A stretch of 13,213 nt of DNA from contig JACRNK010000131.1 in assembly GCA_016234985.1 (NCBI GenBank), positions 1 through 13,213 of the forward strand, in the 5' to 3' direction. The position numbers were made by a program, and so were the translations under genes. Shown here one piece after another: positions 1,353-11,607 of this stretch (position 1 is its first letter; every line of letters starts with the position of its first letter). Origin of the DNA: Deltaproteobacteria bacterium (GTDB lineage: Bacteria; Desulfobacterota; GWC2-55-46; UBA9637). The notes under the pieces are model-generated. The model saw only the letters and a program-made list of their open reading frames with translations, was not told the DNA's origin and ran no database searches.

Positions 1353-2332
1353 ATGTCAAAAGTCTTTTTTGCCTCTGCAAGGGCATTAAAATGGGATTAT
1401 AAGGAAAGCCTGCCGGGAAAATTAGAGAGGCTGATTAAGAAGATTGATTTTAAAAAATATTTTAAAAAAGACGAAGAGGTTGCAGTAAAGACTTTGTAAC
1501 AGATACTGTAAGGATAATGGGGCTTGATTATCTTGAGGTGGCAAATCAAAATGGGATTAACCATCACTCCTGCGGCGCGCCTGTAGTATTGGCAGATGGA
1601 TTGAATGGAAAGGATAATATACTTGTTAAAATAAAGAAGGGCAGTGTTTTAAAAGAGGTGGCAATTGCAACACTCATACATGATGTTTCTGCAATGGTTG
1701 TTCTCTCCCACTGCAAGGGGCATATAAATGCCGGCTATGCAGGCGCAATAAAGAATCTTGCAATGGGCGGCATAAGCTCTGAACATAGGATGCACGGCTG
1801 GAAAAAGGGCAGGGGATGTATTCATACCTTTGGCGAGGGGATTATCACATGGACAAAAGATAAATGCACATATTGCGAACAGTGCGTTAATGTCTGCCCT
1901 CTCGGCATAATAGAATTCAAAGGAAAGAAGTGGGCATACATAATGAATGAATGCTGGAGATGCGGAAGATGCACAAGGGTCTGCCCTGAAAAGGCGCTGC
2001 ATCTGCCGCAGAACGACGAGTATTTCCAAAAAGGCCTTGCAGAAGGCGCTGGCGCTGTGCTTTCCACATTTAAAAAGAAGAAGGTTATTTACATAAACTT
2101 TCTTCTTGATATCCAGCCTGAGTGCGACTGTATGCCTGTTGCAGATGTCCCGTTGTTTCAGGATCAGGGGATACTCATATCCGATGATATGGTTGCAATT
2201 GAGCAGGCATCAGTTGACATTTTACGAAAGGCAAGGTTTATCCCAGACTCAATGGCAGGTGATAGAAAGGTTAAGAAAGGCGAGGATGTGCTTAAAAAAC
2301 TTCATGGCAAGGAGAAAGGCTATTCATTGTAA
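1353..2332 (+). pseudogene. DUF362 / 4Fe-4S ferredoxin-domain protein, broken by internal deletion
   Basis: The gene starts at ATG 1353 after an AAGGGG ribosome site and reads MSKVFFASAR... through VAVKT, then stops at 1497-1499 (48 codons). Family-like sequence (FVTDTVRIMG, then LDYLEVANQNG) resumes at once in another frame, from about 1493 to the stop at 2332. In DUF362 proteins roughly 30 residues (an HFG... to GGKP stretch) normally separate these parts, so about 90-100 bases not divisible by three seem to be missing near 1490-1495. The downstream part keeps LSHCKGH, two [4Fe-4S] motifs (CTYCEQCVNVCP and CWRCGRCTRVCP, at 117-128 and 146-157 counted from Met 1517) and PECDCMP. An ORF from ATG 1517 (271 aa) could be translated but would lack the N-terminal region. 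An assembly error is the alternative. Confidence 0.8.
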
Positions 2333-2464: not shown

Positions 2465-2482
2465 TTGGCATACCTTTTGCTT
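2465..2482 (+). promoter_or_regulatory. Sigma-54 (-24/-12) promoter
   Basis: TTGGCATACCTTTTGCTT has the invariant GG (2467-2468) and GC (2479-2480) with exactly 10 bases between them, inside good flanking matches (TTGGCA and TTTGC). Transcription would start near 2491, about 50 bases before the ATG at 2540. It is the only convincing sigma-54 site found in the intergenic regions, and an NtrC-type activator is encoded in the same cluster. Confidence 0.75.
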
Positions 2483-2539: not shown

Positions 2540-2884
2540 ATGAAAGAGGAAAGAAAAAATACACTCAATATAGGGATGAAGATTGGGGCAACCTTCGGTG
2601 GAATCGCCTTCTTAATCTTCGGGATACTCCCTGGCTTCTATTTCGGTGGTTACGGTACACTTTTACTTCTGACTAAGTTAACAGGAGATGCCGTTGCACC
2701 AACCCTTCTCGTGAGGGCAATCCTTGTAGCAGGAATTACCATAGGTATATTCTCGATCGGAGCTCTAAGTCTTGTAGTCGGTGCGATTCTTGGAACTGCA
2801 GCCGGTTATATTGTGAATACTATAAGCGCACTGGTAGCGCTTTCTGAGACAAAAGAGGCAGAAGAGACTGGAAGGGTAAAATAA
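2540..2884 (+). CDS. Small glycine-rich membrane protein, function unknown
   Basis: The product is 114 residues. A strong ribosome site (AAAGGAGGA) lies 7 bases before the ATG. After a charged N-terminus there is a hydrophobic Gly-rich segment (about 12-45, with FGGIAFLIFG and GFYFGGYG) and a second one (about 57-95, with GALSLVVGAILG), then an acidic/basic tail. The regularly spaced glycines suggest tightly packed helices. I do not recognise a named family. It sits behind the sigma-54 promoter and before the cytochrome genes. A distant resemblance in size and composition to the protein at 11296 is noted, but homology is not shown. Confidence 0.8.
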   Translation: MKEERKNTLNIGMKIGATFGGIAFLIFGILPGFYFGGYGTLLLLTKLTGDAVAPTLLVRAILVAGITIGIFSIGALSLVVGAILGTAAGYIVNTISALVALSETKEAEETGRVK

Positions 2885-3028: not shown

Positions 3029-3940
3029 GTGAAAAGAGAGAAAATAACCTTATTATCTCTAATTTTTATTTTTTTGATTTCGCTTCTGTCCCATCCCGAT
3101 CCCGCCATTGCAAACAGCCTTTCCTGTTTGATATGTCATGGGACATCTGAAGGTGTGATATTCATAGACGGTGAGAGGTTCTCAAAATCTGTACATGGCA
3201 CACTGGATTGCACATCCTGCCATCTTAAATATATAGATACTCCCCATAAGACCCTTGAGAAAGAGATTGATAAATCAATCCTCGATATATCCTTATCAAT
3301 AAGAATAAAGAGTAAGGCAGACCCTGTTGCCCTCTCTGCCTGCAATCAGTGCCATCCTGATGTATTCGGAAAAGTCAAAGGTAGTGTCCACGGTCAAAAT
3401 ATATTCAAAAAGAAGAAATCAGACGGAGCCTACTGTACAGACTGCCATGGGTCAGCCCATTATATATCGCCAGGAAAATCTGGCCAGTCCCCTGTTGACT
3501 TTGGACATGTGATGGAGACATGCGGGGGATGTCACGAAAAAGAGTCTATCTCAAAAGATTATGGCTTCAGCCCAAAGGTTCTTGAAAGGTATAAGGAGAG
3601 TTTTCATGGAAAGAAATATATACTCGGGCATAAAAAGGTGCCTGTCTGCACGACCTGCCACGGAAGTCACGATGTAAAGAGCAGTAAAGACCCGCAGGCA
3701 ATGGTATTCGGGACAAACAGGTTAAATCTCTGCAGCAGTTGCCATCCCGGCGCAAATAACAAATTTACCTCTGCAATCACGCATAAACCTGTGGGCAGAG
3801 ACAACCCGATACCATACTACGCAGAGAAGACCCTTATCGTACTGACGATATCAGTCATCGCAGGCTGTATACTGCATGTACTACTTGAGGCATATGCGAT
3901 AATAAGGGATTATCTGAGAGAGAAGAGGAGGGAAGAATGA
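3029..3940 (+). CDS. Heptaheme c-type cytochrome with C-terminal membrane anchor
   Basis: The start is GTG with GGAGG at 3020-3024, giving 303 residues. A Sec signal peptide (hydrophobic 7-20, likely cleaved near AIAN 26-29) is followed by seven CXXCH heme motifs at Cys33, 61, 105, 136, 165, 207 and 235. One transmembrane helix (about 266-292) and a basic cytoplasmic tail end the protein. Extra histidines in repeated HG contexts (SVHG at 54-57 and 119-122, FHGK at 192-195) are good candidates for distal ligands, suggesting bis-His low-potential hemes. Its stop overlaps the next start (ATGA), so it is translationally coupled to the cytochrome b. The same domain layout recurs as the N-terminal half of the gene at 7811. 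It probably takes electrons from the membrane cytochrome b on the periplasmic side. This is not NapC/NrfH, which anchor at the N-terminus. Confidence 0.93.
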   Translation: MKREKITLLSLIFIFLISLLSHPDPAIANSLSCLICHGTSEGVIFIDGERFSKSVHGTLDCTSCHLKYIDTPHKTLEKEIDKSILDISLSIRIKSKADPVALSACNQCHPDVFGKVKGSVHGQNIFKKKKSDGAYCTDCHGSAHYISPGKSGQSPVDFGHVMETCGGCHEKESISKDYGFSPKVLERYKESFHGKKYILGHKKVPVCTTCHGSHDVKSSKDPQAMVFGTNRLNLCSSCHPGANNKFTSAITHKPVGRDNPIPYYAEKTLIVLTISVIAGCILHVLLEAYAIIRDYLREKRREE

Positions 3941-4677
3941 GTCAAGAGAGACATCAGTCACAGGTGAGTGAACTTCCTGAAGAGGTCGAGAGGCTCAATA
4001 TACATTACAGGATCCAGCACATAATACTATTTACCACCTTCATCCTTGTGGCCCTGACAGGCTGGGCACTTAAGTATCCTGAGGTGGAATACTCAAGTCG
4101 GTGGGTAAGGATATGGGGTGGCCCTGAGACAGCAGGCATCATCCATAGGGTTGCGGGTATCACTATGCTCCTCGATTTTTTATACCACCTGATATATTTA
4201 GGGTATCGTTTTTTCAAAGGGGAGCGCAGTTTTGATATAGTCCCAACCCCAAAGGACCTGGTGGACTTCTTTCAGAATATAAAATATTTCCTCGGCATAT
4301 CCAGAGATAAGCCCAAATTCGGGAGGTTCACTTATTCCCAGAAATTTGATTACTGGGCTGTTTTCTGGGGAATACTTATCATAGGTTCTTCAGGTCTTGC
4401 CCTTGCCTTCCCGACAAAGGCAGCCTTTTTAATCCCGTCCTGGGCAACGAACTGGGCATGGGAACTATTCTACATAATGCATAGCGATGAGGCACTCCTT
4501 GCGATTATATTCATATTCTTCTGGCATTTCTACAATGAGCACCTTAAACCCGATGTATTCCCTATGAGCTTTGTCTGGATTACAGGTAAGATATCAATAA
4601 AGAATCTGAAGGAACGCCATCCTGCAGAATTCGAACGTCTCTTCCCAAAGGCATCTATCAAGGAGAAGGAGGAATAG
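3937..4677 (+). CDS. Membrane cytochrome b subunit (quinol-oxidase-like, partner of the heptaheme cytochrome)
   Basis: The product has 246 residues and four predicted transmembrane helices (about 29-47, 66-90, 139-158, 183-200). Histidines placed as b-heme ligand candidates are His28, His70, His84, His182 and His197. The layout resembles the di-heme cytochrome b subunits of formate dehydrogenase and Ni/Fe hydrogenase. The start overlaps the preceding stop by four bases, with GAGGAGGGAAGA just ahead. It matches the C-terminal half of the gene at 7811 closely (NIHYRIQHI; FGRxTYxQKxxYW; WHFYN). By analogy with CbcL-type inner-membrane gates, I infer that it oxidises quinol and passes electrons to the periplasmic hemes. 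The direction of flow and the quinone type are not visible. Confidence 0.9.
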   Translation: MSQERHQSQVSELPEEVERLNIHYRIQHIILFTTFILVALTGWALKYPEVEYSSRWVRIWGGPETAGIIHRVAGITMLLDFLYHLIYLGYRFFKGERSFDIVPTPKDLVDFFQNIKYFLGISRDKPKFGRFTYSQKFDYWAVFWGILIIGSSGLALAFPTKAAFLIPSWATNWAWELFYIMHSDEALLAIIFIFFWHFYNEHLKPDVFPMSFVWITGKISIKNLKERHPAEFERLFPKASIKEKEE

Positions 4678-4683
4678 GGAATT

Positions 4684-5046
4684 ATGTACGGAAATAAGGC
4701 TGTCATAGTTATAGCGCTTCTTTTCCTTCTTACGGCCTGTCCAGGGCCTGATTTTAAAGCCGAAAAGAAAAGTCTACCAATGCCAGAAGGTGTCTCCTTT
4801 TCTGAAGAAAGGAAAGATAAGAAGGAAGAAACAATAAAGAACCTTATCTGTTTTAAGTGCCACATCTATGAGCGCTTTATACAGGGACCCCAGAAGGGTG
4901 TCTTTTCCCATACCGTTCATGCACAGTTTGAATACCACTGCAATCAATGCCATAGCTTCAGGGGGCATAAGACGATGGTCGTCAACAGGGATATATGCAT
5001 AAACTGTCATGGTGAGATGCCTAAATTAAAACGTGCGCCTGGTTGA
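4684..5046 (+). CDS. Triheme c-type cytochrome lipoprotein
   Basis: The product has 120 residues, with AAGGAGG at 4666-4672. A short hydrophobic N-terminus ends in a lipobox (LLTAC, Cys19), so the mature protein should be lipid-anchored. An unstructured linker (about 22-50) leads to a compact domain with three CXXCH motifs at Cys56, Cys86 and Cys105. His76, His79, His85 and His95 are free to serve as sixth ligands, as in small c7/c3-type cytochromes. It starts 6 bases after the cytochrome b stop. I infer that it takes electrons from the heptaheme cytochrome and hands them on. Whether it stays in the inner membrane or is sorted to the outer one cannot be decided; Pro20 follows the lipidated Cys. 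Confidence 0.9.
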   Translation: MYGNKAVIVIALLFLLTACPGPDFKAEKKSLPMPEGVSFSEERKDKKEETIKNLICFKCHIYERFIQGPQKGVFSHTVHAQFEYHCNQCHSFRGHKTMVVNRDICINCHGEMPKLKRAPG

Positions 5047-5070
5047 TAATACAAACACATTTAATTCTGT

Positions 5071-5128
5071 CCCCTCACCTAAATCCTCTCCCCTTCGGGA
5101 GAGGGGATGGGAGGGTGAAGCGGGGGAA
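5071..5128. repeat. Palindromic interspersed repeat, copy 1 (inside the cytochrome operon)
   Basis: The core hairpin is CCTCTCCC (5085-5092), loop CTTC, GGGAGAGG (5097-5104). It is flanked by the typical CCCTCACC and GGGTGAAG outer parts. It fills most of the gap between the triheme lipoprotein and the kinase, and its G-rich right end supplies the only ribosome-site-like sequence before ATG 5131. Two related copies lie near the right end. Elements of this sequence type occur widely in bacterial genomes as REP-like or MITE-like repeats. Confidence 0.75.
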
Positions 5129-5130
5129 AG

Positions 5131-6468
5131 ATGTTTAGGCTTTCAACTAAAACCCTCAGATTCAAGATTTCCCTGTCCCTTATAGCATTCATATTTTTCA
5201 CATGCTGGATTCTTTCCTTTATATTTGTTGTAAATGATCTAAACCGCATATCCGAGGATATCCAGAGGGAAGGAGAATTTTTTGCCGAGACGATTTCATC
5301 GGTCATCCCGAATCTCCTGGTGAACCGCAACTATCAGGTTATTGACGATATACTTGAGAATGTGAAAAAAAAGCCGCTCTTTAACTATATCCTCGTAACC
5401 GATCCTGAGGGAGGTATAATTGCCCAAACCGATCTTCCAGTGAAAGGTGAATATCAGGGATTAAGGAAGGTATCTAAGATCATCCTTTATAAAGGAGATG
5501 TCATAGGTAAGGTTGAGATCGGATTGAGGGTAGAAATCTTCTTCCAGAGAATGGGGAAGGCCCTTCTTGAGGCCTTCGCCTTCTCATTATTCTTTATGTT
5601 CATGGGAATCCTGCTTTCGATAACGATTTCGAAAAAGATCACCGCCCCTGTCGAAAGACTGAGCCAGAGGGCCACGGCCTTTACAGGGACAGGCCTTCCT
5701 GATGAAGGTTTAGAGGAATCTATTCAGGGCGATGAGGTGGAAGTCATGGAGAGGAGTTTTAACAGGATGATAGATGGACTGAGAAAAAAGGAGGAACAGA
5801 TCAAAGAGAAGAACAGAGAACTCCTGAATCTCGCAGGTGGCATATCACACGAACTGAATAATATAATAAACATAATAATCGGTTTCTCGAGGGCACTTCA
5901 GAGAGAGGTCGAAATAGAAAGCGAACACCACAGGGATTTAGAGACCATAATAAGGGAGGCAAAAAAGGCGAAAGCCGTTATCGAAAACCTCATGTCCTTT
6001 GCGAGACTGCCTGAAATGCAATACACTTATTTTGATATAGCAGGCTGCCTTGACGTCTGTATTGCGGACATAGAGAGCCAGATAAGGGTTCAGGGGATAA
6101 ATGTCAGGAGGGATTACGAAGATGGGCTTCCCCTTATGAGGGGTGATGAGAAACAGCTAAGGGAGTCCTTCTTTAATATAATTCTAAACTCGGTACAGGC
6201 GATGCCGGGAGGTGGAGAGTTGACTTTAGAATGCAAACGGCATAATAATATCCTTGAGATAAAGATTTCCGATACAGGTGAAGGGATACCTGATGATATA
6301 AAGGAGAGTATCTTCGAGCCCCTCTTTACGACAAAAAGGGGTGTCTGTGGGGTTGGACTCGGATTACCAATATCCAAGAAGATAATAGAGAGGCATAACG
6401 GTGCGATCTCATTCTCAAGTAAGAGAGGTGAGGGGACGACCTTTTATATCAGTATCCCCATCGATTAG
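5131..6468 (+). CDS. Membrane sensor histidine kinase (HAMP, HisKA, HATPase)
   Basis: The product is 445 residues. Two transmembrane helices (about 12-34 and 145-167) bracket a periplasmic domain of about 110 residues containing LVTDPEGGIIAQTD, which suggests a PAS/Cache-like sensor fold. A HAMP linker (about 168-222) follows. The H-box GGISHELNN carries the phospho-acceptor His240; then come the N-box (Asn353 in NIILNSVQAMPGGG), DTGEGIP at 381-387, FEPLFTTK and GVGLGL at 407-412. All catalytic parts are present and no heme motif is seen. The response regulator starts 12 bases after its stop, so the two form a classical NtrB/NtrC-like pair. The ligand or redox signal is unknown. Confidence 0.92.
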   Translation: MFRLSTKTLRFKISLSLIAFIFFTCWILSFIFVVNDLNRISEDIQREGEFFAETISSVIPNLLVNRNYQVIDDILENVKKKPLFNYILVTDPEGGIIAQTDLPVKGEYQGLRKVSKIILYKGDVIGKVEIGLRVEIFFQRMGKALLEAFAFSLFFMFMGILLSITISKKITAPVERLSQRATAFTGTGLPDEGLEESIQGDEVEVMERSFNRMIDGLRKKEEQIKEKNRELLNLAGGISHELNNIINIIIGFSRALQREVEIESEHHRDLETIIREAKKAKAVIENLMSFARLPEMQYTYFDIAGCLDVCIADIESQIRVQGINVRRDYEDGLPLMRGDEKQLRESFFNIILNSVQAMPGGGELTLECKRHNNILEIKISDTGEGIPDDIKESIFEPLFTTKRGVCGVGLGLPISKKIIERHNGAISFSSKRGEGTTFYISIPID

Positions 6469-6480
6469 GATCTAAAGGCT

Positions 6481-7860
6481 ATGAATACAGAGAACAAGGA
6501 AAAGATTCTCGTTATAGACGATGAGCCTGGCATGAGGGAGATGTTCAGGCGTTTGCTCAAGGACTCTGTAGTCCTTCTTGCCAAAGATGGCTATGAGGGC
6601 ATAGAGATAGTGAAAAAAGAAGACCCTGATATAGTCATATCTGACCTCAAGATGCCGAAGATGGACGGGATAGAGGTCCTGAAAAATATAAAGGAGTATA
6701 ATTCTACCATCCCCATTATACTTATAACAGCCTATGCAACCATCGAGACCGCTGTCGAGGCGATAAAGATAGGGGCCTATGACTATATAACAAAACCCTT
6801 CGACCCTGATGTCATAGAGATTACTATAAAGAACGCCCTCCAGCATAAGAGGCTTCTGGATGAGAATAGATACCTTAGGGAGAAACTGAAGGCCATGCAG
6901 GAAAGGGAAAAAATCATTGGTGAGAGCACGGCCATGAAAGAGGTCTTCTCGCTGGTCGAAAAGGTTGCACCCACTGATGCCACTGTCCTTATACAGGGTG
7001 AAAGCGGCACGGGGAAAGAGCTCATAGCACAGGCAATACATAAAAACAGCCTCAGGGCCGATAAGACATTCCTCTCAATAAACTGCTCTGCCTTCCCTGA
7101 GACCCTACTTGAGAGCGAGCTCTTCGGATACGAGAAAGGATCCTTTACAGGTGCCGTGAGATCAAAGGAGGGGCTCTTTGAGGCAGCTAACATGGGGACA
7201 CTATTTCTTGACGAGATAGGCGAGATGCCCCCAAGTCTACAGGTAAAACTCCTCAGGGTCCTTCAGGACGGTCTGATACTCAGGATAGGAAGCAGGAGGC
7301 CCTTTACAGTTGATGTGAGGATTATATCAGCTACAAACAAAAACCTTAAGAAGGAGGTGGAGGCAGGTAATTTCAGGGAAGACCTCTTTTACAGGATAAA
7401 TATATTTACCATAAATCTACCACCGCTCAGGGAAAGAAAAGAGGACATACCTCTGCTACTCCATTACTTCCTCCTCAAATACAATAAGAAATTCTCAAAA
7501 TCGGTTGAAACCATTTCACCGGCATTCATGAATTTCTTAATGAACTATCACTGGCCAGGTAATGTGAGGGAGATCGAGAATCTTATGGAAAGAGGGGTGT
7601 TGATGTCAGAGGGGAAACAGCTCGACATATCAACCCTGCCTGACGAATTAAGGGATAAATCGAAGATGGAGATACCATCCTATGATACCCTTACTTTCAG
7701 GGAGGCGAAAGAGAGATTCGAGAAAGACTACATACAATCGCTCCTTAAAAAACATGAAGGGAGGGTAAGCAGAGCTGCAATAGAGGCCGGGATGCCGAGG
7801 CCAAATTTCTATGAGAAACTTAAAAAATATAACATCCCTTATAAAAAAGAGTCTACATAG
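6481..7860 (+). CDS. NtrC-type sigma-54-dependent response regulator
   Basis: The product is 459 residues. The receiver domain (about 8-120) has Asp13-Asp14, the phosphorylation site Asp55, Thr83 and Lys105. The AAA+ domain has Walker A GESGTGKE (173-180), the sigma-54-contact loop as GSFTGA (220-225) instead of GAFTGA, and Walker B LFLDEIG (241-247). A Fis-type helix-turn-helix lies at about 421-450. Phosphorylated by the adjoining kinase, it should open sigma-54 promoters. The best local target is the -24/-12 site at 2465-2482. Its last 50 bases overlap the start of the fused cytochrome gene, so that gene is probably translationally coupled to it. Confidence 0.95.
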   Translation: MNTENKEKILVIDDEPGMREMFRRLLKDSVVLLAKDGYEGIEIVKKEDPDIVISDLKMPKMDGIEVLKNIKEYNSTIPIILITAYATIETAVEAIKIGAYDYITKPFDPDVIEITIKNALQHKRLLDENRYLREKLKAMQEREKIIGESTAMKEVFSLVEKVAPTDATVLIQGESGTGKELIAQAIHKNSLRADKTFLSINCSAFPETLLESELFGYEKGSFTGAVRSKEGLFEAANMGTLFLDEIGEMPPSLQVKLLRVLQDGLILRIGSRRPFTVDVRIISATNKNLKKEVEAGNFREDLFYRINIFTINLPPLRERKEDIPLLLHYFLLKYNKKFSKSVETISPAFMNFLMNYHWPGNVREIENLMERGVLMSEGKQLDISTLPDELRDKSKMEIPSYDTLTFREAKERFEKDYIQSLLKKHEGRVSRAAIEAGMPRPNFYEKLKKYNIPYKKEST

Positions 7861-9499
7861 ATTCCTTCCCTTCCTTTTTCCCTTCATAATATTGATGCTT
7901 CCATTTTTCACCATTGCATCTGATGATTTGGAGGCAAAATGTATAATCTGCCATAGCAGATTTAAGGACGAAAGATTTGTTGATGAAAGGGAGTACAAAG
8001 ACTCAGTCCATGGTAAGCTGGAATGCATGGGCTGCCATGCAATAAGGTTTTATAAGATGACCCATACCGTATCAGAAGAATTGATATCAAAAGATGTAAA
8101 AGAGATATCCAGATTCCTGAAAGGAAAGGGGAATGACCCAATAACAGTTGCCTCATGTGTGGGATGCCATAATAAGGAATATGAGGTCTTCAAAAAGAGT
8201 ATTCACGGAAAGGCGATCATTGAAGAGGGGATACAAAACGCAGCATTCTGTACAGACTGTCATAACCGTCATCACTATATCAAACTATCCTCAGCCCCTC
8301 TGTCCTCTGTATCAAGGCAGAGGATAGTGGAGACATGCGCCAGATGTCACAGTGACAGTACTATCGCGTCAAGATATGGATTGAATATCTATGTCGTTGA
8401 GTCTTACAGGGCACATTTTCACGGAAAGCGGTATGTCATGGGAAGCCGTGAGACACCAAACTGCGCCATATGCCATGGTAACCATGATATAAAATCCCAT
8501 AACGACCCTGAATCCCCTGTCTTTGGAGAAAATAAGGTGAGACTCTGTTCAAGGTGTCATGAAGGGGCAACAGAAGAGTTCGCCCGTGCCTTTACACACA
8601 GACCTATTGATTCAAAGAATAATCCAACCGCGTTCTATGCAAGAGTTGTTATGGTATGGATAATCGTCTCTGTCGTTTCCTTCCTTTTTATCCATCTCGT
8701 CCTTGACATCTATTCCGAAATAGCCAGAAAGATAAGAAAAGGGAAAGAACCCCTCAGGAAACCTTCTTTAAATATCTTTCTGAAGAATCTACCCAGAGAG
8801 GTTGAACGAATGAATATCCACTACAGGATACAGCACATAGTGCTTTTCACATCTATATTCTATCTGGCGGCATCAGGTTTCACTCTGAAATATCCCGATC
8901 TCAGGATATCACAGATGTGGATTAACCTGTGGGGAGGAATTAAAATGGCAGGCCACGTTCACAGATTCGGGGCAGTTGTCCTCATCACTGATACAATCTA
9001 TCATATCGGTTATATTATTTACATTGCTACCCAAAAAAGGTTAGGGGTAGATATGTTCCCTCGGGTTAAGGATATTAGAGATTGCTGGAAAAACATAAAG
9101 TATCTCACAGGAATCTCCGATGAAATGCCCAGATTCGGGAGGTACACCTATCTCCAGAAACTCAATTACTGGCTCGTTGTGATAATTGTCCTTGTTATGA
9201 CCCTGACAGGTTTTATGTACTGGTTTCCGACAACGACAGCAGATATACTCCCGGGTTGGTCCTCATTCTGGATATGGGGGGTTGCATATATTGCACACAG
9301 CACAGAGGCACTTATCGCCCTCTTCTTCGGGATGGTCTGGCATTTCTATAATGTCCACCTAAAAAGCCGTGTCTTTCCGATGAACTTGGTATGGCTTACA
9401 GGAAAGATTCCAATGGAAGACCTTATGGAGGACCACCCTCTTGAGTTTGAACATATGTTAGAGGAAAAACCGAAAAAGGAAAATTTTCAAGATCCCTGA
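7811..9499 (+). CDS. Fused heptaheme cytochrome c / cytochrome b (CbcL-like architecture)
   Basis: The product is 562 residues. The start at 7811 lies 50 bases inside the preceding gene; it is chosen because only this start gives a complete signal peptide (basic n-region 2-17, hydrophobic 18-35, ASD). Seven CXXCH motifs (Cys44, 72, 116, 147, 176, 218, 246) precede a transmembrane helix (277-300) and a short basic linker. A four-helix cytochrome b follows (about 335-515, with His341, His384, His398, His496 and His511). It is collinear with the two separate genes at 3029 and 3937 (303 + 246 residues), down to shared strings such as NIHYRIQHI. The layout recalls the inner-membrane cytochrome CbcL of Geobacter, but heme count and orthology are not established. 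It likely moves electrons from quinol to periplasmic hemes. Confidence 0.92.
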   Translation: MRNLKNITSLIKKSLHRFLPFLFPFIILMLPFFTIASDDLEAKCIICHSRFKDERFVDEREYKDSVHGKLECMGCHAIRFYKMTHTVSEELISKDVKEISRFLKGKGNDPITVASCVGCHNKEYEVFKKSIHGKAIIEEGIQNAAFCTDCHNRHHYIKLSSAPLSSVSRQRIVETCARCHSDSTIASRYGLNIYVVESYRAHFHGKRYVMGSRETPNCAICHGNHDIKSHNDPESPVFGENKVRLCSRCHEGATEEFARAFTHRPIDSKNNPTAFYARVVMVWIIVSVVSFLFIHLVLDIYSEIARKIRKGKEPLRKPSLNIFLKNLPREVERMNIHYRIQHIVLFTSIFYLAASGFTLKYPDLRISQMWINLWGGIKMAGHVHRFGAVVLITDTIYHIGYIIYIATQKRLGVDMFPRVKDIRDCWKNIKYLTGISDEMPRFGRYTYLQKLNYWLVVIIVLVMTLTGFMYWFPTTTADILPGWSSFWIWGVAYIAHSTEALIALFFGMVWHFYNVHLKSRVFPMNLVWLTGKIPMEDLMEDHPLEFEHMLEEKPKKENFQDP

Positions 9500-11220
9500 A
9501 CTGTAGGCAGCCTTATTATAAAGGTTGTTCCTTTCCCTATATCGCTACACACCATTATTTCCCCTTTATGGTTTTCTATTATACGCTGGGTTATGCTCAG
9601 CCCGAGGCCTGTACCTTTTGTTTTTGTGGTAAAAAAGGGGTCGAATATCCTCTCACGGTTCTCCTGTGGTATCCCCTCTCCGGTATCTATCACCTTTATG
9701 ACTATGTCTTTGTCTATATGTTCTGTGGAGACGGATATGGTACCGCCATGAGGCATCGCCTGCACAGAGTTAATAAAGAGATTTATAAAGACCTGGTGAA
9801 GTTCACCCTTATTCCCCATGACAGGTGGGAGATTTTCACCAAGGCTCTTCTCAATCCTGCAGGGTGTATCATCCCGCTCATACTGAAATAAAACAACCGA
9901 TATAGACTCCTCAATAACTCTGTTTATATATAGTATCTCCTGCTGGTATGAAGGCTTTGCGTACATGAGAAGACTCTTTGTAATCCTGTCCATCCTTGTT
10001 GCGGCATCCATTATATATTTAAGACATTCCCTTGCATCTTCATCATAACCCCTGTTAAGAAGGAGTTTGGAATATGCCACAATTATTGCGAGGGAATTTC
10101 CTATCTCATGGGCGATTCCTGCTGCTATCTCACCAATAGATGCAAACTTCTCCTGTCTTATCATCTGTTTGATGGTAAGGTTCAGTTTCTCCTCCTCCCT
10201 TATTAGGGACTCAACCATATTATTAAATGAAGTGGCCACAATCCCGATCTCGTCGGGCGATTCTATATCAACCCTCTGCGAAAGGTCTCCCCTTGCAACC
10301 CTGTTAGCCATTACCGAAAGCCTTTTGAGGGGACGGAGACTCCTCTTGACGACGATATAGTTTATAAGACTGAGTACCGCCATGATCAAAAGCGATATGG
10401 CGATATAATTTGCGATGATCCTCTTTTTTGCAAGGACGAGGTCATTCGTAGACATGACAATCCCGAATATAGCTTTTCCTCCTCCCTCCCTTTCGAGTGG
10501 TGCGAATATCACCTTGTATTCCTTCTTTTCAAAAAATAGCCTCTCGATTACTGACTCCCCCTTCTTTGTTACCCTCTCAATGAGATCAGGCGTGGCCTTT
10601 TTCTGTATCTCCAGTCTCTCATCCTCCGTCCTTAATGTGGAGGACACGACCCTCTCCCCGTAAAGGATGAATATGTCATTCCCTATCTTCTTCTTTATCC
10701 TTTTCAGATATTCATCATCGAAGCCAAAGCCAACCATGATGATCTTATCCCTGTTGACAGGTGCAACGACATCAAAATCGAGATTAACTGTATCTCCGAG
10801 CTGTTTTGGTATAAATCCCAATGTGAGTTCGCCAGAAAGCCCCTTCTTTATTAAATCTTTCTGTGATGTATTCCCTTCCTTCAGATACCTGAAAGGTTCA
10901 ATGTATATCTTGAGACCTTCCTGCATGAACAGGCCCAGATGGAAGAGACCCATAATACGTTTTTCACCATACTTCTCCATTATCCTCCTTTCATCCGCAA
11001 GGAGTTCGGCATAAAGGATCGCCTGTTTCTCTTTGTCCCTGAAAAAACTCTCAATGGTATCCCTGTAGGAAATTATCTCCTTTGTTGTACTCTCTTCCAT
11101 ACGGTGGGTGAGTATCTCACCTACAAAAAGGACAACCACAATGATCGCAAGAAATGAGAGGGTTACAAAAGGAAGAATTATCTTCCCCTGAAGGGTATTC
11201 TTTTTAATATTTATCTTCAT
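9487..11220 (-). CDS. Large membrane sensor histidine kinase, convergent with the fused cytochrome gene
   Basis: From ATG 11220 the product is 577 residues. Transmembrane helices lie at about 14-36 and 269-291, with a periplasmic domain of about 230 residues (Cache-like by size) between them. Then come a HAMP segment (about 292-345), the H-box GIAHEIGNS with His371, the N-box Asn484, DTGEGIP (512-518) and GTGLGL (536-541). A TTG at 11238 would add six residues, but it lies inside the predicted promoter and has no suitable ribosome site. The stop overlaps the fused cytochrome gene tail-to-tail by 13 bases. No response regulator adjoins it. It may feed the NtrC-type regulator of the cluster, giving two sensory inputs. 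Confidence 0.9.
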   Translation of the reverse strand: MKINIKKNTLQGKIILPFVTLSFLAIIVVVLFVGEILTHRMEESTTKEIISYRDTIESFFRDKEKQAILYAELLADERRIMEKYGEKRIMGLFHLGLFMQEGLKIYIEPFRYLKEGNTSQKDLIKKGLSGELTLGFIPKQLGDTVNLDFDVVAPVNRDKIIMVGFGFDDEYLKRIKKKIGNDIFILYGERVVSSTLRTEDERLEIQKKATPDLIERVTKKGESVIERLFFEKKEYKVIFAPLEREGGGKAIFGIVMSTNDLVLAKKRIIANYIAISLLIMAVLSLINYIVVKRSLRPLKRLSVMANRVARGDLSQRVDIESPDEIGIVATSFNNMVESLIREEEKLNLTIKQMIRQEKFASIGEIAAGIAHEIGNSLAIIVAYSKLLLNRGYDEDARECLKYIMDAATRMDRITKSLLMYAKPSYQQEILYINRVIEESISVVLFQYERDDTPCRIEKSLGENLPPVMGNKGELHQVFINLFINSVQAMPHGGTISVSTEHIDKDIVIKVIDTGEGIPQENRERIFDPFFTTKTKGTGLGLSITQRIIENHKGEIMVCSDIGKGTTFIIRLPTVQGS

Positions 11221-11226
11221 TAATTT

Positions 11227-11255
11227 AGGATATATCAAATACCCTAATTTGTCAA
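11227..11255 (-). promoter_or_regulatory. Sigma-70-type promoter of the large kinase, predicted leaderless
   Basis: On the minus strand TTGACA (11255-11250), a 17-base spacer and TATCCT (11232-11227) form a strong match. Only six bases separate the -10 from the ATG at 11220, so transcription would start at or within a base or two of the start codon. No ribosome site is present, which fits a leaderless mRNA. Confidence 0.6.
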
Positions 11256-11295: not shown

Positions 11296-11607
11296 ATGGG
11301 AAGATTCTCAGGTATAAGAAAGGGGATCCTGATCGGCGGTATTGCTGGTATTATAACCGCTATCGCAGTCGCAGGTTCTCTCGAGACCTTCTTTGGTAAG
11401 GGTTTAGAAGGTGGCTGGTATGATGCCACAAGAAAAGACATGATAAACCTTTTTGGAAACAATATCGGTAACCTTAAATCACTAATCACAATCTATCTCT
11501 CTGTTATATTCATAATCATCTCAGGGATAGGCGGACTTGTCGGTGCCTTCTTCGGTCTCCTCATAGAGATATTTTTTTCCAAGTTAAAGGGTATCTTCGA
11601 GAGGTAA
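11296..11607 (+). CDS. Small glycine-rich membrane protein, function unknown
   Basis: The product is 103 residues. Two hydrophobic segments (about 10-27, with ILIGGIAGIITAIAVAG, and about 65-94, with GIGGLVGAFFGLLIEIFF) flank a polar loop containing GGWYDATRKDMINLFG; the tail is basic. Small-residue spacing such as GIGGxVGAxxG suggests helix packing. It is divergent from the large kinase with a 75-base gap and has no Shine-Dalgarno sequence. I recognise no family. Its size, glycine content and position beside the electron-transfer cluster parallel the protein at 2540, which may hint at a shared role. Confidence 0.72.
   Translation: MGRFSGIRKGILIGGIAGIITAIAVAGSLETFFGKGLEGGWYDATRKDMINLFGNNIGNLKSLITIYLSVIFIIISGIGGLVGAFFGLLIEIFFSKLKGIFER

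Follow-up and report, generated by a model that had tools for sequence, protein, structure and literature searches.

The CbcA chain has seven hemes, and the CbcBA genes stand under a sigma-54 regulator. Quinone-to-cytochrome gates of the CbcL and CbcBA types set the lowest potential at which a mineral or an electrode can be respired, and in Geobacter they have been described as separate proteins for separate potentials. CbcBA of Geobacter sulfurreducens, described as similar to CbcL, works near -0.2 V (PMC12307469), is assigned a role at the inner membrane and is raised more than 30-fold on electrodes (PMC6148476, PMC12307469). CbcL is described as carrying nine c hemes and a diheme b domain and as forming a redox complex with the triheme cytochrome PpcA (PMC9129911). 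The present analysis concerns a gene cluster in contig JACRNK010000131.1 (assembly GCA_016234985.1, Deltaproteobacteria bacterium), the whole 13,213-nucleotide stretch of which is called the window; in it a split and a fused version of such a gate lie together with a regulator gene and kinase genes. In contrast to the separately described Geobacter gates, these two appear to be an anciently diverged pair that is inherited as one unit with its regulator and kinase.

Like CbcBA, the window has adjacent genes (3029..3940 and 3937..4677, plus strand, overlapping by 4 bases), the first for a multiheme c chain that has a single membrane helix, the second for a b chain of four helices, here termed CbcA-like and CbcB-like; the two systems are likened by architecture and published description. 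Unlike CbcBA, the window adds a fused module (7811..9499, plus strand), a regulator gene between the modules and a convergent kinase gene. The fused protein resembles CbcL in joining multiheme c and diheme b parts in one chain and in having a triheme c7-type partner, and differs from it in carrying seven c hemes rather than nine; a split paralogue in the same operon, such as the window has, is not described for CbcL in the accessible portion of the source (PMC9129911). The locus may on these grounds be called CbcBA/CbcL-like, its new part apparently being the presence of split and fused gates together in one cluster. No description of such a gate pair in one cluster was found in a partial coverage of the literature (including PMC12307469, PMC10553843, PMC9129911, PMC12977616 and PMC6148476), and no link of Nitrospirota, the phylum of most related clusters, with CbcL or CbcBA was found in the literature searched, where other spellings of the phylum name were barely covered. 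The pair offers a testable natural set for asking which residues set the working potential, since only two class-fixed differences fall in the heptaheme part at the 93% level, and the cluster offers a candidate sensor-regulator set for this kind of respiration in Nitrospirota.

The first-pass annotation of the window had proposed that the genes at 3029 and 3937 encode as two chains what the gene at 7811 encodes as one, and this is borne out by both parts of the module; all the genes that it named were located where it had placed them, from 3029 through 7811. The first split chain (GTG start) has a signal peptide, a heptaheme c domain with PF14522, PF14537 and PF09699 all above cut-off, and one C-terminal transmembrane helix at about residues 268-286. 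Its seven CXXCH motifs lie at residues 33, 61, 105, 136, 165, 207 and 235, and those of the fused protein at 44, 72, 116, 147, 176, 218 and 246; the offset is a constant 11, so that all six spacings are equal. The second split chain is a four-helix diheme cytochrome b resembling FdnI, the cytochrome b556 of E. coli formate dehydrogenase N, and in the fused protein a heptaheme c part is followed by a transmembrane helix and a four-helix diheme b part, with PF14522 and PF01292 above cut-off. PF01292 scores 41.4 bits in the split b chain and 39.6 bits in the fused one against a curated cut-off of 30.1. BLASTP aligns the split heptaheme chain with the fused protein at 35% identity (106/303, E 8e-71) and the split b chain at 46% (107/235, E 1e-73), and the string NIHYRIQHI, given earlier as shared, is found in both b parts. 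With such spacings, identities and E-values chance is ruled out as the cause of the likeness, and the two genes and the one gene encode one and the same module, made up of a heptaheme c part, a membrane helix and an FdnI-like diheme b part, in split and fused form.

The cluster is probably a self-regulated sigma-54 operon that makes two specialised menaquinol:cytochrome c gates together and links them to periplasmic cytochromes, a reading of the sequence held with moderate confidence. According to this scheme the convergent kinase would sense a periplasmic signal through its Cache domain and phosphorylate the regulator, which would then activate sigma-54 RNA polymerase at the promoter heading the cluster, and the levels of both modules, of the triheme carrier and of the regulator would rise with it. 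Electrons from menaquinol would enter each module at its b hemes and go on to its own heptaheme domain, which would hand them to the triheme c7 carrier. The modules would be made together and yet be specialised, by a different potential or a different quinone site, and having both at once would widen the working range of the cell with no transcriptional switching.

As a unit the cassette is met again in other genomes, mostly of Nitrospirota. When named genomes were scanned with an alignment of fused proteins that had 18 rows, each with seven CXXCH motifs, 36 loci were obtained, of which five (L033-L037) are close; four of the five are filed as Nitrospirae or Thermodesulfovibrionia and one only as 'bacterium'. 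Searching 395 genomes from the phylum to which genome G441 belongs added a further cassette (L166, genome G741), and another, L173, is truncated. The order seen in the window, from the split pair through the triheme gene, the regulator and the fused gene to the convergent kinase, is repeated in L034, L035, L036 and L037, and L033 begins within the kinase gene that the window has between the modules. Both modules, with an NtrC-type regulator between them and the convergent kinase behind, are present in all six readable loci (the window, L034-L037 and L166). The convergent kinase is found in 7/7 readable loci, L033 being the seventh, and the triheme gene in 5/5 readable cassettes, the corresponding region of L166 falling in a run of 100 N. 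A gene for a small three-helix membrane protein (2540..2884, plus strand), which has no Pfam or NCBIfam family at E 0.01, precedes the split pair in the six cassettes and in truncated L173, its product being 45-89% identical in L034-L037, L166 and L173. The constant parts are a sigma-54 promoter, this small membrane protein, the split pair, the triheme cytochrome, the NtrC-type regulator, the fused gene and the convergent kinase, while none of the window's genes from outside the cluster is matched next to the cassette in L033-L037, L166 or L173. The view of the locus as a single system is upheld both by these neighbourhoods, where the pair was not always without kinase and regulator but had them in every readable locus, and by the placing of both modules in one family in the trees described below.

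The range first assigned to the system, 3029-9499, proves too small, as the promoter (2466-2481) and the small membrane gene precede it and a second kinase gene (9487..11238, minus strand) follows. This second kinase (TTG start, or ATG at 11220) has Pfam sCache_3_3, HAMP, HisKA and HATPase domains and is convergent with the fused gene. The kinase noted between the modules is indeed present (5131..6468, plus strand; Pfam HisKA and HATPase, with HAMP under its cut-off), and it is the second kinase that is constant in relatives. The nested kinase is clade-specific, being found in the window, L034 and L166 and in part at the contig end of L033; as a constant cognate kinase it is a weakened candidate, since it was not found in three of the six readable loci (L035, L036, L037). 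The carrier (4684..5046, plus strand) is a triheme c7-type periplasmic cytochrome (PF14522, 28.6 bits against a cut-off of 24.8), as had been said; its description as a lipoprotein holds for the window, with lipobox LTAC, and for L034, and not for L035-L037, where no lipobox was seen.

All family statements rest on protein searches from which the best 120 of 1334 and the best 120 of 2423 matches were listed. The sensor part of the second kinase recovers 10 proteins at E 1e-5 among about 5.8 billion, the window's own included, in a search limited to relatives sharing exact words. Four of the other 21 listed heptaheme fused proteins (P0002-P0022) appear to be paired with listed split b proteins, judging by equal lengths of their longest contigs (42127, 12883, 45406, 21822), as do four of the nine other homologues of the second kinase (50121, 12267, 42127, 36213); the contig of length 50121 proved to be that of L166. 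For the split b chain no plasmid-borne relatives were found at E 1e-10.

Separate trees of the two parts, the check suggested with the original proposal, place both modules in one family. In a b-part tree of a chosen subset of rows (17 fused, 20 split and 14 other proteins) the fused proteins form a clade at 100/99 and the split chains a clade at 100/97, and in larger quick b trees the fused proteins are again one clade while the other listed split b proteins group with those of the cassettes. The heptaheme tree separates split and fused together from longer fused cytochromes at 100/100, and the cassette split chains form their own clade (99/97). It was rebuilt omitting L030, L031, L038 and other rows from the G-numbered genomes, with fewer outgroup and fused rows and with every second single-module heptaheme (18 of 36); the short P0015, P0021 and P0022 were left out of this tree, of the b-part tree and of one of the quick b trees. 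Because split and fused chains are separate clades of one family the modules are old paralogues, firmly so by the b part, and on these trees the split/fused divergence predates the divergence of the cassettes. The clade of cassette split heptahemes fits a single assembly of the cassette followed by joint inheritance. Two other origins are ruled out by the trees, a recent local duplication and a derivation of the modules from unrelated families. As a separate observation, in L167 (genome G657) and L168 (genome G731) one match runs through both the split heptaheme and the b gene, interrupted by a single TAA, which means that very little DNA change can separate a split from a fused arrangement.

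Plain redundancy, in which paralogues of the same function and equal potential are kept for dosage or backup, would account for the identical domains, heme spacings and ligand positions and for the co-expression expected from one cluster. It does not sit well with a split/fused divergence older than that of the cassettes, or with the residues that each class keeps. At a level of at least 93% within each class there are 2 class-specific positions in the c part and 14 in the b part, which is unexpected if the copies were freely redundant. The two of the c part are, in split/fused numbering, Asn124/Ala135 and Ser191/His202, each no more than three residues from a presumed distal ligand; those of the b part include Asp184/Thr498 and Glu201/Val515, near presumed heme ligands. 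Together with the company that the close fused form keeps with the split form (below), this makes redundancy improbable. Class-fixed residues beside heme ligands instead point to tuned properties and hence to specialisation of the modules, and they lend help to the suggestion that the two differ in potential.

Residues common to both classes support the assignment of the hemes. The seven CXXCH histidines and seven further periplasmic histidines are kept in 41/41 split and 23/23 fused sequences, a set that fits bis-His ligation of all the c hemes. For the b part, chain C of FdnI structure 1kqf is the only b-type chain among solved structures at E 0.001 by profile, aligning at E 5.8e-09; FdnI His18, 57, 155 and 169, which are its heme ligands, are all aligned, and these four positions are kept in at least 93% of 33 split rows and of 23 fused rows. 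FdnI is partnered by an iron-sulfur subunit, in contrast to the heptaheme cytochrome that partners the b part of the window. Beyond the four FdnI-type ligands there are further membrane histidines, His295 and His398 in the fused protein and His283 and His84 in the split chains, at positions kept in at least 93% of the split and the heptaheme fused proteins and also found in the other listed fused multiheme-b proteins P0023-P0120 (His295 in 97/98, His398 in 92/98). FdnI differs here too, as none of its histidines aligns with His398, and His295 precedes the aligned part. The extra pair could hold a third b heme or line a quinone site.

In a more elaborate arrangement the two modules, differing in potential, would depend on each other as the halves of an asymmetric complex with a shared quinone site, a bifurcating bc gate that sends the two electrons of menaquinol to carriers of different potential. 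In six loci with readable context the close fused form always had the split form beside it, while the split form is common alone; two more distant heptaheme fused genes (L038, L097) have no split pair in the stretches read. Such a complex is decidedly unlikely. In distant L038, titled Deltaproteobacteria, genes for a cytochrome with 12 hemes, for a kinase and for an NtrC regulator come after the fused heptaheme-b gene.

The genes of the cluster overlap or sit close together, and the regulator gene (6481..7860, plus strand) encodes the domain set of an NtrC-type sigma-54 activator, with the receiver PF00072, the sigma-54 AAA+ domain PF00158 and the HTH_8 domain PF02954 above cut-off. At the head of the cluster is a -24/-12 promoter of sigma-54 type, TGGCATACCTTTTGCT (2466..2481, plus strand), which was spotted by eye and then tested; it is the sole match on either strand of the window at up to one mismatch and is itself free of mismatches. 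With one mismatch allowed 58 of 200 whole-window shuffles also contain a sigma-54 match, and the weight of the site therefore rests on its recurrence: TGGCAY-N5-TTGCW, in mismatch-free form, begins 66-112 bases ahead of the gene for the small membrane protein in 7/7 cassettes (the window, L034-L037, L166 and L173) and occurs in none of 200 shuffles of each cassette stretch. The seven cassette regulators form one clade at 100/99. Regulator and kinase look, from this arrangement, like the cluster's own dedicated on-switch.

The first-pass annotation had suggested redox-tuned switching between the modules, in which the potential of the acceptor would decide which of the two is turned on by the two-component system. 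Two kinases in the clade of the window could indeed give two inputs, and in L035, L036 and L037 a second sigma-54 site lies between the small membrane gene and the split pair, where parts of the cluster can be uncoupled; neither the window nor L034 has a site there. Transcriptional switching between the modules is nevertheless unsupported in the window, where the fused gene starts inside the regulator gene (a 50-base overlap), no sigma-54 site precedes the fused gene in a scan allowing three mismatches, the sigma-54 site heads the whole cluster and one regulator serves the locus. Such switching is very unlikely, and the layout, with the fused gene beginning in the regulator gene, lacking its own site and lying behind the head promoter, predicts co-induction.

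Several observations weigh against a co-induced pair of specialised menaquinol gates or against parts of the argument for it. A TATAAT at about 2990 may give the split pair a housekeeping promoter of its own, and there is a hairpin behind the small membrane gene, for which reasons a single transcript is not proven. No convincing enhancer sites for the regulator were found in the window, a TGTAA-N8-TTACA palindrome of enhancer-like form occurring with no mismatch in L036 and L037 only. In the b-part tree the node joining fused and split against the 14 other proteins is moderate (91/79); in the heptaheme tree the fused chains alone have 94/75 and the split chains alone 79/83, neither starred, and the first heptaheme tree, which included the very long L030 row, did not keep the fused group together. 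The seventh of the further periplasmic histidines (fused His85) was not invariant in a first alignment and was invariant in a later one. The cassette regulators and most regulators of loci with a single, split module belong to different NtrC clades, so that a joint inheritance of regulator and split pair reaching back to their origin is not demonstrated: 16 of 18 single-module regulators form another clade (100/99, with one from L168), the two of L186 lie elsewhere and other NtrC proteins fall between the clades, whose deeper order is unresolved. One common regulator for paired and single-module loci is unsupported by this tree; it looks as though two or more sensor-regulator sets have come to control this one kind of gate.

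The direction of electron flow, finally, is not fixed by anything in the sequence of the window. One or both modules might run in reverse, menaquinone being reduced by periplasmic cytochromes with electrons from mineral oxidation or from a partner. The fold is expected to permit both directions, and the CbcBA of Seep-SRB2 is predicted to run in reverse (PMC10553843). Among the annotated genes of the window there is no look-alike of an outer-membrane conduit, and electron uptake is a possible but doubtful explanation.

The contig is probably not part of the genome in which it was binned. The bin is about 63% complete, and its RecA is 87-98% identical to those of four genomes of its genus against 71-73% to those of cassette-bearing genomes G441-G445. 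The four genus mates have no close fused protein, and their best regulator matches are 45-49%. A ferredoxin-like gene of the window (1517-2332) has no match in them at E 1e-30; it is 57-66% identical in G441, G443, G444 and G445 (in G441 on a different contig from the cassette) and 35-41% in seven genomes of the wider class and phylum of the bin, and cassette-bearing G442 is without it. A GGDEF/HD gene likewise has no match in the four at E 1e-60 and a 39-45% match in G443, G444, G445 and G723, the nearest cassette genomes G441, G442 and G741 being without it. Tetranucleotide usage is not discriminating (r 0.76 against the bin, where other contigs give 0.67-0.81, and r 0.84 against L034). Since three genes or gene sets match cassette-bearing genomes of another group better than the genus of the bin, and the bin's RecA points to a different place, misbinned Nitrospirota DNA is the likely identity of the contig; transfer is the alternative, and the cluster itself is unaffected by the choice. 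No RNA families or tRNAs were found in the window. Behind the second kinase lies a gene for a small membrane protein (11296..11607, plus strand) that has a 75-84% match in L033, L034 and L166 and none in L035, L036 and L037; being found in close relatives only, it is an unsure member of the cluster.

Single-module loci are known from the 395-genome search, in which 68 genomes matched at E 1e-70 and at most the three best candidates per genome were scored. Matches above 900 bits came from G441 and G741 only, the other listed ones being mostly split chains or longer fused proteins. Forty stretches were taken, L166, L167 and L168 being annotated fully and 37 (L169-L205) by script; L173, as a truncated cassette, is excluded from the counts, and many stretches stop at a contig end. 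A split heptaheme is present in 36 of the stretches, with an adjoining b gene found by script in 28, and no heptaheme fused gene occurs in those displayed (all but L187). The first histidine of NIHYRIQHI is in none of these 28 split b chains, and among 29 rows is found in the window's own alone.

Like the window, these Nitrospirota loci have the same split chains, a multiheme carrier behind them in 29/36, often the small membrane protein, and an NtrC regulator and kinase nearby; unlike it, they have a 6- or 9-heme carrier, a CXXCH kinase and mostly the other NtrC clade. The carrier has 6 hemes in 17 loci and 9 in 12, with none found in 7, as if the cassettes with 3 hemes and the single-module loci used one, two or three triheme c7 units. 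Of the 27 loci that have 1 kb or more of upstream sequence, 12 carry a gene of the small membrane protein type no further than 3 kb away, sometimes in two or more copies, and a sigma-54 match with one mismatch lies within about 1 kb upstream of the split heptaheme in 13/35 against 1.0 expected, one of the 36 having been dropped for its short upstream stretch. Regulator and kinase are nearby in 17 of the 36 loci (in 16 of the 30 whose downstream stretch reaches 6 kb or more), and 16 of the 17 have a kinase with a single CXXCH motif; the three such kinases checked have a dCache_1 sensor above cut-off. One-CXXCH kinases near split heptahemes (L169, L176, L188, L204 and others) are candidate c-heme redox sensors for this respiration. 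A possible part of an outer-membrane conduit, a decaheme protein of about 290 residues, is encoded a short way upstream of the split pair, with a few genes between, in L170, L171, L179, L193 and L204.

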